Shown in pieces: positions 17,396 through 22,074 of a DNA stretch of 23,738 nucleotides. The stretch is from the IMG/VR virus record IMGVR_UViG_3300017727_003491, positions 1 through 23,738 of that record. The stretch is one strand, 5' to 3'. Below the pieces are notes generated by a model that saw only the letters and a list, made by a program, of their open reading frames with translations, searched no databases and had not been told where the DNA came from. A program made the translations under genes and the position numbers. The stretch comes from a virus. Each line of letters begins with the position of its first letter. Position 1 is the first letter of the stretch.

Positions 17396-17737
17396 ATGGC
17401 TAAAAAGAAATTATCAAAAGCAGCAGCAGCAAAGAAACGACTGAAGGTAGGTAAACCAGTTCCGTCATACAAACCAAAGAAGAAGAAGATGGTAGTTGTT
17501 ATGAAGAACGGTCGCAAAAAGCTGATACATTACGGAGCGAAAGGCTTTGGCCACAATATCAGTGCAGCTGCGAGGAAATCTTTTAGAGCACGTCATGGAT
17601 GTAGCAAAGCAAAAGATAGAACAACAGCAAAATACTGGGCATGCAAAGACTTATGGTCAGCATCCAGTCCAAAGAAAACTACAGGTACGAAAGGGCGTGT
17701 AGCCAAAAAGAAAACTAAAACTCGGAGGAAAAAATGA
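17396..17737 (+). CDS. Lysine-rich small phage protein with the SFRARHxC...YWxCK motif
   Basis: The 113-residue product has basic ends (several Lys runs at 3-33 and 95-113) and a compact middle. The middle reads SFRARHGC at 62-69, then KAKDRTTAKYWACK (71-84). I recognise this Arg-His-Cys...Tyr-Trp-x-Cys pattern from small conserved proteins in marine phage and algal virus genomes, where the function is unknown. The pair of cysteines (69 and 83) plus histidine could bind a metal. High charge suggests contact with DNA, perhaps packaged or ejected with the internal proteins encoded just upstream. It opens a cluster of six tiny genes. The ATG of the next micro-gene overlaps its TGA. Confidence 0.75.
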   Translation: MAKKKLSKAAAAKKRLKVGKPVPSYKPKKKKMVVVMKNGRKKLIHYGAKGFGHNISAAARKSFRARHGCSKAKDRTTAKYWACKDLWSASSPKKTTGTKGRVAKKKTKTRRKK

Positions 17738-17787
17738 GTGACGAATGTAAGAAGTGTCAATGTGACCCATGCAGATGTGAGGAATAG
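17734..17787 (+). CDS. Cysteine-rich micro-protein (17 residues)
   Basis: The ATG overlaps the preceding stop (ATGA) and has a strong GGAGG ribosome site at 17724-17728, five bases upstream. The product is only 17 residues, MSDECKKCQCDPCRCEE, with five cysteines in a CxxCxCxxCxC array and flanking acidic residues. That spacing resembles a metal-binding finger or metallothionein-like cluster. The next gene starts two bases after its stop. It is too short for routine gene callers, but the combination of strong ribosome site, tight coupling on both sides and regular cysteine spacing argues that it is translated. It could also be only a translational coupler. I know of no named family for it. Confidence 0.5.
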   Translation: MSDECKKCQCDPCRCEE

Positions 17788-17789
17788 AT

Positions 17790-17933
17790 ATGCAGAAATT
17801 AATACAATGGATGAACGAGAATAAAATCCGTGTTGGCTTTGTTGGTATGGCCTTAGTTATTACCACTCAATACGCGACATGTACTCTAGAACCAACAGTG
17901 GAAACACCAGAACAAGAACAAGTGGAGGAATAA
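17790..17933 (+). CDS. Small one-span membrane peptide
   Basis: The 47-residue product has a charged amphipathic start (1-13), one hydrophobic segment (14-28, VGFVGMALVITT), a single cysteine at 31, and an acidic tail rich in Glu, Pro and Gln. It lies between the micro-protein gene and a lysine-rich gene, with a GAGGA-type ribosome site before its ATG and one base between its stop and the next ATG. The cysteine after the hydrophobic stretch recalls a lipoprotein signal, but the residues before it (Tyr-Ala-Thr) are not a good lipobox. A role in lysis (spanin- or holin-like) or as a virion membrane peptide is possible. The assignment is open. Confidence 0.55.
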   Translation: MQKLIQWMNENKIRVGFVGMALVITTQYATCTLEPTVETPEQEQVEE

Positions 17934-17934
17934 A

Positions 17935-18042
17935 ATGCCAGGATATAAAGTTGGAAAGCCTATTAAGCGAAAGCCGATGAAGAAAAAGAAACCTGCTAAG
18001 AAGCCAATCAAAAGAAAGGCTCCTAAGAAGAAGAAGAAATGA
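17935..18042 (+). CDS. Lysine-rich mini-protein (protamine-like)
   Basis: The 35-residue product begins MPGYKVGKPIKRKP and is almost entirely Lys, Arg and Pro, with 19 Lys and 3 Arg among 35 residues and a repeat of the type K-P-x-K-R-K. GGAGG lies 6 bases before the ATG inside the end of the preceding gene. Its TGA overlaps the ATG of the next gene (ATGA at 18039-18042). Such composition can neutralise DNA charge, as protamines do. With neighbours of similar composition it may form a set of DNA-condensing or nucleoid-binding virion peptides. No fold or family is recognisable. Confidence 0.6.
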   Translation: MPGYKVGKPIKRKPMKKKKPAKKPIKRKAPKKKKK

Positions 18043-18290
18043 AAAGAAAGGCAAAGGTAAAGTCTTTACCTAAACAATACAAGGCTCCGAAAGGAAGCAA
18101 GCGTGCAAAATTAATTAAAAAAGCATCTAAACTCTATAAGCAAGGCAAGATTAAACAAGCCTCAGCCATTAGAGAAAAGATGGAGGAGAAAGAACGTGGC
18201 AAAAGCAAAAAAAGCACCCGCAAAAAAGTCGTCAAAGCGAAAAGGAAAAGGCGTAATGGCAACACTAAGAAAAAAGGCGTCAAAAAGTAA
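18039..18290 (+). CDS. Lysine/arginine-rich small protein overlapping the next gene
   Basis: The 83-residue product is very basic from end to end. A helical middle (about 20-55, KRAKLIKKASKLYKQGKI then SAIREKMEEKERG) is followed by a Lys/Arg tail (56-83). The last 95 bases also encode the start of the next protein in another frame. The low-complexity tail in the overlap is what one would expect if this frame is constrained by the other gene, or if the tail is tolerated as non-specific charge. The start is coupled to the preceding stop. A DNA-binding role is inferred from composition only. The first 55 residues look more gene-like than the tail. Confidence 0.6.
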   Translation: MKRKAKVKSLPKQYKAPKGSKRAKLIKKASKLYKQGKIKQASAIREKMEEKERGKSKKSTRKKVVKAKRKRRNGNTKKKGVKK

Positions 18291-18465
18291 GAAGTTTTCA
18301 GCATCAGAATTGAAGAAGTCTTATGATAAAGGATTAGCTGCTTATCTTAGTAGTGGTAGTAGAAAAGGTGTGACAGCACACCAATGGGCAATGGGTCGTG
18401 TCAATTCAGTTTTACGTGGTGGTAAAGCCAGAAAAATTGACTTCCCGCGCAAAGGAAAAAAATAA
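18196..18465 (+). CDS. Small conserved phage protein with the AHQWAMGRVNSVLRGGKA motif
   Basis: The 89-residue product starts at a GTG with a strong GGAGGAG site (18182-18188) seven bases upstream. An ATG at 18256 (residue 21) is a weaker alternative. The first 35 residues are Lys/Ala-rich. The folded part (36-80) reads SASELKKSYDKGLAAYLSSGSR followed by AHQWAMGRVNSVLRGGKA. I recognise this helix-turn pattern (YxxGLAAYxxSGSR, then HxWAMxRVNS) from uncharacterised small proteins of marine phages and algal viruses. The mostly basic, helical protein may bind DNA or RNA. It overlaps the previous gene by 95 bases in a different frame, which is unusual even here. Confidence 0.75.
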   Translation: MAKAKKAPAKKSSKRKGKGVMATLRKKASKSKKFSASELKKSYDKGLAAYLSSGSRKGVTAHQWAMGRVNSVLRGGKARKIDFPRKGKK

Positions 18466-20479: not shown

Positions 20480-20490
20480 TAATATAAGAA

Positions 20491-20507
20491 TACATCCCAT
20501 GGGTGTA
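20491..20507. other. Short stem-loop upstream of the structural terminator
   Basis: TACATCC (20491-20497) can pair with GGGTGTA (20501-20507) through seven pairs, one a G-T wobble, around a three-base loop. Together with the terminator at 20537-20564 it makes two hairpins within 75 bases after the holin-like gene. Confidence 0.45.
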
Positions 20508-20536
20508 CTCCAAATAAAACATGCTAAACAAAACTA

Positions 20537-20564
20537 AGTCAGACCTAACAGTCTGGCTTTTTTT
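20537..20564 (+). terminator. Intrinsic terminator ending the structural genes
   Basis: AGTCAGAC (20537-20544) pairs with GTCTGGCT (20551-20558), eight pairs with one wobble, around a six-base loop, and is followed by a run of T ending at 20564. A second AT-rich palindromic A-run/T-run sequence lies at about 20571-20591. It probably ends the long structural transcript; the genes beyond have a different character. Confidence 0.9.
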
Positions 20565-20610
20565 ATTTTTCTAAGAAAAAAACTTTTTTAGCAGATAGTT
20601 ATACATCGTT

Positions 20611-20635
20611 TAGTTAAGTTGAGTTGAGTTGAGTT
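20611..20635. repeat. Five tandem 5-base NAGTT repeats
   Basis: Five consecutive pentamers read TAGTT, AAGTT, GAGTT, GAGTT, GAGTT. They sit about 60 bases before the nuclease-like ATG and just upstream of a perfect inverted repeat. Regular 5-base spacing equals half a DNA turn. A protein-binding array or simple slippage repeat are both possible. Confidence 0.7.
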
Positions 20636-20643
20636 TTATATGT

Positions 20644-20664
20644 GAGAACTAGGAAAAAGTTCTC
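20644..20664. promoter_or_regulatory. Perfect inverted repeat, candidate operator or leader hairpin
   Basis: GAGAACT (20644-20650) and AGTTCTC (20658-20664) form a perfect 7-bp inverted repeat with a seven-base A/G-rich loop. It lies 30 bases before the nuclease-like start codon. It could be an operator for a dimeric regulator or a hairpin in the mRNA leader. A CTATAG sequence follows at 20666-20671. Confidence 0.55.
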
Positions 20665-20694
20665 GCTATAGATGATAACAGCTGGAGTATAATC

Positions 20695-21210
20695 ATGTAT
20701 AATTGGAATGAGACATTCGATTGGGGTGTCAATGAAGAACTGCGTGTGCTTAAACACATGTCAAACCTAAAACCTGAGATGAATATCAGACCTTTAGGTG
20801 GTAAAAACGAACCAGATGGAATGAGTTCACTGGGTGGTATAGAAATTAAATCGTATTCAACTTGGTATTACCATCCAAGTATTGAAACAAAGTGTCTTAA
20901 ACCTTATCTCAAGGATTCGTGTTGGTTATCTGATGAAAGGACTACGATAGTTATTTGTAATCATCAAGGTTCATTGCATCTCTATAAAGCAGAAGCACTG
21001 AGGTATCACTATAACAAGGGTACATTTAGTACATATAAGAAGTGGGTTAGTCAAGGTAATGGAGAGAGTAAGCTGATGGAGTTTATTTCTATCAGAAGTT
21101 TAAGTACTCACACACATACAATTAAAGAACCTAATGATACTGATAATCTGAGGTGGGATTGTTCTCAAATTACAGATAATAATCCTTACATTTGTTCAGT
21201 GTCTATTTAA
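20695..21210 (+). CDS. Putative PD-(D/E)XK-type nuclease
   Basis: The 171-residue product contains RPLGGKNEPDGMSSLGGIEIKSYS, with Asp41, Glu50 and Lys52 in the spacing D-x8-E-x-K, preceded by an N-terminal helix with Glu14/Glu15. That is the catalytic pattern of PD-(D/E)XK nucleases, with the strand GGIEIKS carrying E and K. A following strand (TTIVICNHQG, about 83-92) fits the same fold. Such enzymes in phages include endonucleases, exonucleases and resolvases; I cannot say which this is. A GGAG site lies seven bases before the ATG. It stands alone between a terminator and the AT-rich non-coding region. No partner methylase is visible. The motif is short, so a false match is possible. Confidence 0.5.
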   Translation: MYNWNETFDWGVNEELRVLKHMSNLKPEMNIRPLGGKNEPDGMSSLGGIEIKSYSTWYYHPSIETKCLKPYLKDSCWLSDERTTIVICNHQGSLHLYKAEALRYHYNKGTFSTYKKWVSQGNGESKLMEFISIRSLSTHTHTIKEPNDTDNLRWDCSQITDNNPYICSVSI

Positions 21211-21278
21211 TGTAGAACGAGAGAGAGCAGGCATAAATCTACTCTCTCTCTAATAATAAATAAATTATCATCTACATT
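21209..21278 (+). promoter_or_regulatory. Nested GA/TC stem-loop at the end of the nuclease-like gene
   Basis: An outer 8-bp perfect pair (AATGTAGA at 21209-21216 with TCTACATT at 21271-21278) encloses an inner 9-bp perfect pair (GAGAGAGAG at 21219-21227 with CTCTCTCTC at 21242-21250). It begins inside the stop codon of the gene and ends in a short T-run. It may act as a terminator or 3-prime protecting structure. Confidence 0.6.
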
Positions 21279-21420
21279 TTCAAGGAGAAACTGAAACCTA
21301 AATGTCTAGAAAAGATTCCAGTCACTAATAACTATACCATAACTATTAGATTATCTTAAATTTTTATTTGAATGTAAAAGAACTAAGACTTAATGAAGTC
21401 ATAGAATAATAATAATATAA

Positions 21421-21501
21421 ATATATTATATCTAATAAGCTTCAGTTTTACAATTAAAGAATTAATATACTGAATAATAATTATTATTAGATATAATATA
21501 T
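21421..21501. repeat. 18-bp perfect AT-rich inverted repeat
   Basis: Bases 21421-21438 are perfectly complementary to 21484-21501, leaving a 45-base loop that contains a further 5-bp pair (TTCAG at 21441-21445 with CTGAA at 21470-21474). The right arm stops two bases before the first GC-rich hairpin element, so the two form a continuous structured block. Confidence 0.8.
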
Positions 21502-21503
21502 AT

Positions 21504-21536
21504 AACGTATATCGGCCGTTATGGCCGTACAACGTT
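21504..21536. repeat. GC-rich hairpin element, copy 1
   Basis: A symmetric palindrome. Outer arms AACGT (21504-21508) and ACGTT (21532-21536) are separated by four unpaired bases on each side from inner arms CGGCC (21513-21517) and GGCCG (21523-21527), around a five-base loop. The 15 bases from 21514 match the reverse complement of copy 2 with one mismatch. It is an isolated GC island in AT-rich DNA. Confidence 0.75.
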
Positions 21537-21539
21537 AGA

Positions 21540-21570
21540 AGATAGTTAATATATATAGTATTAATTATCT
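21540..21570. repeat. AT-rich hairpin beside copy 1
   Basis: Bases 21540-21551 pair with 21559-21570 (12 pairs, one of them a G-T wobble) around a seven-base loop. It lies four bases after the first GC-rich element. In such AT-rich sequence some short pairing is expected by chance. Confidence 0.5.
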
Positions 21571-21641
21571 CTTAGATATAACTATACAGTAACTTAAGAA
21601 AGTTTACAAATAAAATAAAAAAAAATAAAATCTAAAATAAA

Positions 21642-21670
21642 TTGTACACTTTCTCTAGATAGAGTATAGT
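21642..21670 (+). promoter_or_regulatory. Weak sigma70-like promoter with an inverted repeat in the spacer
   Basis: TTGTAC (21642-21647) and TATAGT (21665-21670) are 17 bases apart. The spacer holds CTCTA (21653-21657) and TAGAG (21660-21664), a possible operator. The -35 matches poorly and AT-rich DNA gives chance matches, so confidence is low. Confidence 0.3.
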
Positions 21671-21714
21671 TATATTAGAATAATAAATAATATATATACA
21701 GAATAAATAATAGA

Positions 21715-21741
21715 TAACTAATAATATAATAACTAATAATA
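21715..21741. repeat. 12-base direct repeat
   Basis: TAACTAATAATA occurs at 21715-21726 and again at 21730-21741, a 15-base period, just before the second GC-rich element. It could be part of an unwinding or binding region, or chance in low-complexity DNA. Confidence 0.55.
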
Positions 21742-21742
21742 A

Positions 21743-21771
21743 GCGAGAACGGCCGTAACGGCCATAAACGC
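21743..21771. repeat. GC-rich hairpin element, copy 2 (inverted)
   Basis: Inner arms GGCC (21751-21754) and GGCC (21760-21763) flank a five-base loop, and outer arms GCG (21743-21745) and CGC (21769-21771) enclose them symmetrically. The reverse complement of 21749-21763 matches copy 1 (21514-21528) at 14 of 15 bases. The two copies are in opposite orientation, about 235 bases apart. Confidence 0.7.
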
Positions 21772-21788
21772 AGTAACTATAGAGAGAG
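21765..21788 (+). promoter_or_regulatory. T7-class RNA polymerase promoter-like sequence
   Basis: The sequence ends in ACTATAG followed by alternating AGAGAG. ACTATAG is identical to the core and start site of the T7 class promoter, and the 11 bases before it match the T7 consensus at five positions, including an initial TAA. The start would be G21782, which would give only an 11-base leader before the ATG at 21793. No phage RNA polymerase gene is in the window, so this is a candidate only. Confidence 0.35.
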
Positions 21789-21792
21789 ATTA

Positions 21793-22074
21793 ATGAGAGC
21801 AGCTGACAAAATAGAAGTTTATAATTTAGATGAAACATGGAGCAAGATAGTAACTGTAACCTCAGTCGAAGTGGGAGCTCATCCTGAGAATATAGCATAT
21901 CTGAAACATGTTAATGCTAAGCATGAAGACTGGTATTTTGAAGATGACTGGGAAACCATATACCTCAGTGACGGTACGTGGATACAATGTGACCTAATGA
22001 ATGGTATCAATACTCTTATGTGCAGAGACGAAGTAGATTGGCGTCAACTACATAACTGGCACCAACGACGTTAA
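21793..22074 (+). CDS. Small acidic protein of unknown function, first gene after the AT-rich region
   Basis: The 93-residue product is acidic and rich in aromatic residues, with five Trp (for example EDWYFEDDWETIYL and DEVDWRQLHNWH). It is mixed alpha/beta and has no membrane segment. It is preceded by a GA-rich stretch (21781-21789) rather than a typical ribosome site and sits just after a T7-class promoter-like sequence. As the first gene of the right-hand cluster it may be an early host-takeover protein, but no family is recognised. Confidence 0.6.
   Translation: MRAADKIEVYNLDETWSKIVTVTSVEVGAHPENIAYLKHVNAKHEDWYFEDDWETIYLSDGTWIQCDLMNGINTLMCRDEVDWRQLHNWHQRR

Follow-up and report, generated by a model that had tools for sequence, protein, structure and literature searches.

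The stretch of DNA analyzed here (the window) is a 23.7 kb IMG/VR record, namely the 23,738 nt of IMGVR_UViG_3300017727_003491. Between an upstream gene at 20695-21210 and a downstream gene at 21793-22074, both on the plus strand, lies a gap (21211-21792) that an earlier note on this DNA had described as 582 AT-rich bases without a gene. Both descriptions hold. The gap is not filled by any ORF of 50 aa or more that has a plausible start, and it is more AT-rich than any other part of the window, with GC down to 0.18-0.19 as compared to 0.385 window-wide. A minus-strand ORF at 21632-21898 overlaps the downstream gene, and nothing else backs it.

The repeats, hairpins and promoter-like sequence listed in the earlier note are all present where it had placed them (Table 1), and the palindromes occur beyond chance. 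None of 300 dinucleotide shuffles contained an 18-bp perfect repeat (the longest was 14 bp), and three GC-rich stems, the GA/TC stem-loop and two GGCC dyads, compare to 0.01 per shuffle. The direct repeat is 13 nt rather than 12 bases long. Sigma70-like sites are present but no more numerous than in shuffled sequence (13 versus 10.4, sd 3.3), only their position being conserved. The leftward strand from 21573 to 21215 folds with z = -7. A single leftward RNA of ~350 nt was considered and set aside; it folds well, but its middle is common to relatives only as pairwise similarity.

Table 1 Features of the gene-free gap. Positions are those of the window
Feature	Position	Strand	Basis
Predicted small-RNA gene, ~105 nt (5' ~21324, 3' ~21220)	21220..21324	-	Architecture scan, covariance model, fold, promoter and terminator positions; ends predicted
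5' hairpin H1, 10-11 pairs, 13-nt loop UUUCUAGACAUUU	21289..21323	-	Covariation
Single-stranded anti-Shine-Dalgarno CUCCUU	21282..21287	-	CUCC invariant in 8 aligned members; unpaired in folds
Small-RNA terminator hairpin (the GA/TC stem-loop), weak U tail in the window	21219..21250	-	Tails across loci
Probable small-RNA promoter TTAAGA-17-TATAGT, TG before -10	21331..21359	-	9/12 matches, 7 nt before H1
Short hairpin GACTTCATTAAGTC upstream of the small-RNA promoter	21387..21400	-	Same place in relatives, by eye
18-bp perfect inverted repeat (arms 21421-21438, 21484-21501)	21421..21501		Shuffles
GGCC dyad 1, outer arms AACGT/ACGTT	21504..21536	-	Relatives
Leftward sigma70-like promoter TTGTAA-17-TATAGT	21581..21609	-	Consensus match only
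Rightward sigma70-like early-gene promoter TGTACA-16-TATAGT (TTGTAC-17-TATAGT reads equally)	21643..21670	+	Consensus match
13-nt direct repeat (copies 21714-21726, 21729-21741)	21714..21741		Direct sequence; no conservation seen
GGCC dyad 2, outer arms GCG/CGC, inverted relative to dyad 1	21743..21771	+	L067

Phage family and genome setting

Deposited phages include only remote relatives of the window's capsid protein (22-25% identity), and relatives of this protein were found at 46 loci in IMG/VR. Mapping the window proteins onto the larger relatives revealed a common gene order. A terminase and a portal-like protein were also identified. Two related contigs close on themselves, with terminal overlaps of 98 identical bases in G006 (a map of ~30.4 kb) and of 183 bases at 98% identity in G002 (~30.6 kb). 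The window itself lacks part of the early genes. Relative to the late genes, the control region of G014/G013 and G017 (L068:9633-10875, L078:2126-3900) has the opposite orientation to that of the window, and the inversion in L068 also takes in the early gene homologous to 21793-22074.

A-family DNA polymerase was not detected above the cut-off in the related records, in a search that detected its control. T7-type RNA polymerase was likewise not found in the relatives, a weak negative since control genomes gave no signal either. A gene resembling sigma region 4 lies directly upstream of the terminase (G006; L071:11763-12173) and is a candidate late transcription regulator. The gene upstream of the gap carries the pattern PDG...GIEIKSY, as in PD-(D/E)XK nucleases; it has no Pfam or PHROG match, and no prophage relatives of it were found. 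A second gene-free gap of 215 bp (20480-20694) precedes it. At 17396-18465, three small, very lysine/arginine-rich proteins occur in a row and are kept in relatives; these are possibly DNA-condensing virion proteins. The early genes of G002 include an MT-A70 adenine methyltransferase (L067:552-1145; E = 8e-23).

Conservation of a putative small RNA

Orthologous gaps at L067, L071, L068/L069 and L078 share a hairpin (H1) whose stem sequence is different everywhere, with the loop (UAGACAUU on the minus strand) and the downstream CUCC being kept. The layout on that strand is a 5' hairpin with a GACAU loop, an unpaired UCUCCUU and a terminator hairpin. Among eight sequences, all eight modelled H1 pairs have changed on both sides and 100% of the cells are paired, with 30 double-change cells versus 8.2 (sd 2.5) in shuffles; when the partner was shifted by 1-3 columns, covariation collapsed. 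Leaving the window out and using four relatives, 7/8 pairs have changed on both sides and every cell is paired. The alignment consisted of N-padded sequences of equal length, MAFFT alignments being misregistered. N was placed in some loops and arms to hold the register, whereas the pairs themselves were read from the sequences, and linker bases were omitted (one T in L067 and two in the window between stem and CUCC).

A covariance model built without the window finds it at 21280-21320 on the minus strand (E = 0.015 in 0.7 Mb), which is the best match of the model outside the training sequences and near copies. The next match, L076, has on inspection the same layout together with a promoter and terminator. 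A mechanical scan for a GACAT loop on a stem of at least 5 pairs, with CTCC close behind and a terminator within 130 nt, returned eight matches in 637 kb of family loci (the window, L067, L068, L069, L071, L072, L076 and L089); 910 kb of unrelated phage contigs gave no match. As the scan was written after the first members had been seen, these counts speak to specificity and not to discovery; L072 had been noticed by eye beforehand and L089 was first found by the scan. A variant lacking the GACAU loop was seen by eye at L075. All eight matches are intergenic and lie just past the upstream gene wherever that gene is present. Conversely, each of the six relatives of the upstream gene in viral contigs has the element alongside, close to the 3' end of the gene, with one small gene intervening in L089. 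The window probably holds a conserved small-RNA gene on its minus strand, predicted from sequence. Neither the window nor seven relatives matched Rfam above the gathering score, and we rate the RNA as a new family of a known kind, that of base-pairing small RNAs, outside any named family.

Strand, promoter and ends

The assignment to the minus strand is supported by terminator tails, which are T-rich on the small-RNA strand in 9/10 loci; the window itself is a tie, with 4 T on each strand. In addition, each of the five wobble cells in the H1 core reads as a G-U pair on the minus strand, whereas the opposite strand would have A-C mismatches there, and the folding energy of the longer region favors the small-RNA strand in 5/6 loci, L071 folding better on the other. 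Transcription is predicted from a promoter of at least 9/12 matches located 6-10 nt before H1 in 7/10 loci; L067, L072 and L078 have no good promoter directly before the hairpin. Promoter strength is beyond chance in L075 (2/500 shuffles) and L089 (0/500), and the window's 9/12 site is equalled in 29/500. The terminator ends 73-103 nt from the hairpin start, so the predicted RNA would be about 75-105 nt long.

The remainder of the gap

Relatives share in part the divergent promoter-like sites around an AT-rich centre, the short hairpin and the leader GGCC dyads. The stems of the short hairpin have changed to AGCTT/AAGCT in L067 and to AGAT/ATCT in L071 and L068. In place of the window's 18-bp repeat, L071 has a comparable AU hairpin of different sequence. 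The leftward promoter-like site has counterparts in L068 (TTTACA-17-TATAAT) and L071 (TTTAGA-17-TATAAT), and the rightward site has the same layout in relatives. Conservation of the palindromes among relatives, which the earlier note had proposed as a check, was borne out for the stem-loops. The GGCC dyads are less constant: the window and L067 have two, L068/L069 have one (CGGCCGTTGTCGGCCG) and L071 has none. Between the window and L067, a comparison of two sequences, the outer arms change together, with ACATT/AATGT in dyad 1 and GAG/CTC in dyad 2 of L067. The dyads may represent either a protein site or an element of an RNA leader.

A GGCC-motif scan of viral contigs gave five matches, the one inspected (L064) being a GC-rich repeat. 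Most matches of two long DNA-pattern scans were chance ones in coding sequence, and the matches from the first scan were reused as controls. Directly before the first early gene, AACTATAGAGAGAGA (21777-21791) resembles a T7-type promoter core. A T7-like promoter reading was rejected, no T7-type RNA polymerase having been found in the search described above, which had no positive control.

Candidate targets

Gene starts reading ATGTCTA after a Shine-Dalgarno sequence occur in G002 (2), G006 (1), G014 (1) and G017 (3), seven in total, and all four genomes have a UAGACAU loop. None occur in G019, G021, G015 and G009, which are genomes without that loop, or in the window with its incomplete set of early genes. 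In G019, the two best duplexes of the RNA both involve the divergent early operon, one with its first gene, which gives the best (AAGGAGACAATATGTC), and one with a later gene. When RNAs were swapped between genomes, duplexes were as strong as the native pairs and showed no specificity for these candidate targets. The upstream nuclease-like gene was rejected as a target, its native duplexes being no better than swapped ones.

Discussion

The best explanation for the gap, and one that we consider reasonably probable, is an early control region of a small podovirus-like phage that includes a small-RNA gene. From the AT-rich centre, host-type promoters would fire to the left and right, with the rightward one starting the early genes. 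A separate promoter on the left side would produce the ~105-nt minus-strand RNA, with termination at the GA/TC hairpin immediately beyond the upstream gene. Most likely the RNA would act in trans, its CUCCUU pairing with the ribosome-binding site AAGGAG and its GACAU loop with AUGUC at the start codon, so that one or more mRNAs, perhaps those of early phage genes, would not be translated. Pairing at translation starts is the most likely mode of action suggested by the conserved motifs. The early transcription control proposed in the earlier note fits the divergent promoter-like sites, whose position is conserved, and the leader dyads at the start of the early genes. The interpretation in that note is supported in part; it had missed the small-RNA gene, which accounts for the left part of the gap together with its GA/TC stem-loop.

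We think it unlikely that the palindromes are instead DNA elements for initiation or cutting, i.e., a replication origin or a genome terminus/packaging site. The region does have the lowest GC in the window, long hairpins and a site between late and early genes, and the lack of an A-family DNA polymerase in related records implies that a host-driven origin must lie somewhere. However, GC skew is monotonic through the gap, with no switch, and covariation of the stem explains the left part as an RNA gene. In L072, the gap measures 301 bp and GGCC dyads are missing, although an RNA-like element and promoter-like sites are there. The genome end envisaged earlier is unsupported, since related contigs extending into the region continue across it and the G006 and G002 circles break elsewhere, although a collapsed terminal repeat may lie here. 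That the region is purely a promoter/operator, with palindromes that bind a repressor or activator and no acting RNA, seems to us quite improbable. Two mutually inverted GGCC dyads flanking divergent promoter-like sites would suit such an arrangement, and a protein-site reading may apply to the dyads alone; H1, however, keeps its loop and CUCC while its stem varies freely with pairing maintained, which fits an RNA rather than a protein site.

Two other readings, both of which we regard as very unlikely, concern the strand and the breadth of action. The plus strand might be the functional one. It could then serve as a leader in which AAGGAG...AATGTCTA acts as a ribosome-binding decoy, or encode a tiny leader peptide; in favor of this, close relatives have ATGTCTA downstream of AAGGAG (or GGAG) on that strand. 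The tiny ORFs, however, vary in length and sequence (8, 20, 22, 14 and 7 codons), both the wobble pairs and the terminator tails favor the minus strand, and L076, L089 and L075 have an RNA-strand promoter directly before the hairpin. Alternatively, the small RNA might mimic the 3' end of 16S rRNA (a hairpin, then an exposed UCUCCUU) and serve as a broad decoy or sponge for ribosome-binding sites. This would explain the absence of a specific target, and host or phage translation would then be tuned as a whole and not at one target.

A conserved small-RNA gene in uncultured phages of ~30 kb, whose relatives among the cultured phage records searched are all remote, suggests translational control within a very compact early program. 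Rfam does not include this family, and ORF-based annotation can overlook RNA genes located in palindrome-rich gaps of such genomes.

In the working principle proposed for the phage RNA, its closest counterparts are the alphaproteobacterial anti-Shine-Dalgarno sRNAs alpha-r14/NfeR1 and alpha-R8/SisA-D, which repress translation at the ribosome-binding site (PMC10746234, PMC12559287). As in those RNAs, stems vary freely and the unpaired anti-Shine-Dalgarno motif is conserved (PMC10746234, PMC12559287), whereas the RNA described here is phage-encoded. In NfeR1 there are three hairpins, and CCUCCUCCC occupies unpaired regions; the phage RNA has a single hairpin, with GACAU in the loop and UCUCCUU beyond the stem. 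Given these differences in motif and hairpin number and the lack of an Rfam match, we do not assign it to alpha-r14/NfeR1. Among phage RNAs, PreS and VpdS are also phage-encoded and base-pairing (PMC12197685), but they are Hfq-dependent and belong to temperate phages, with PreS acting on host dnaN, whereas the window RNA is a prediction from sequence. Closest in the effect proposed here are c4 antisense RNA (P1/P7) and sar RNA (P22), which block translation initiation on their target mRNAs, c4 being thought to present its complement in loops (reviewed in PMC12197685). Those two regulate the antirepressor mRNA of temperate phages, whereas the pairing partners of the window RNA are candidates, the likeliest of its proposed actions being at translation starts.
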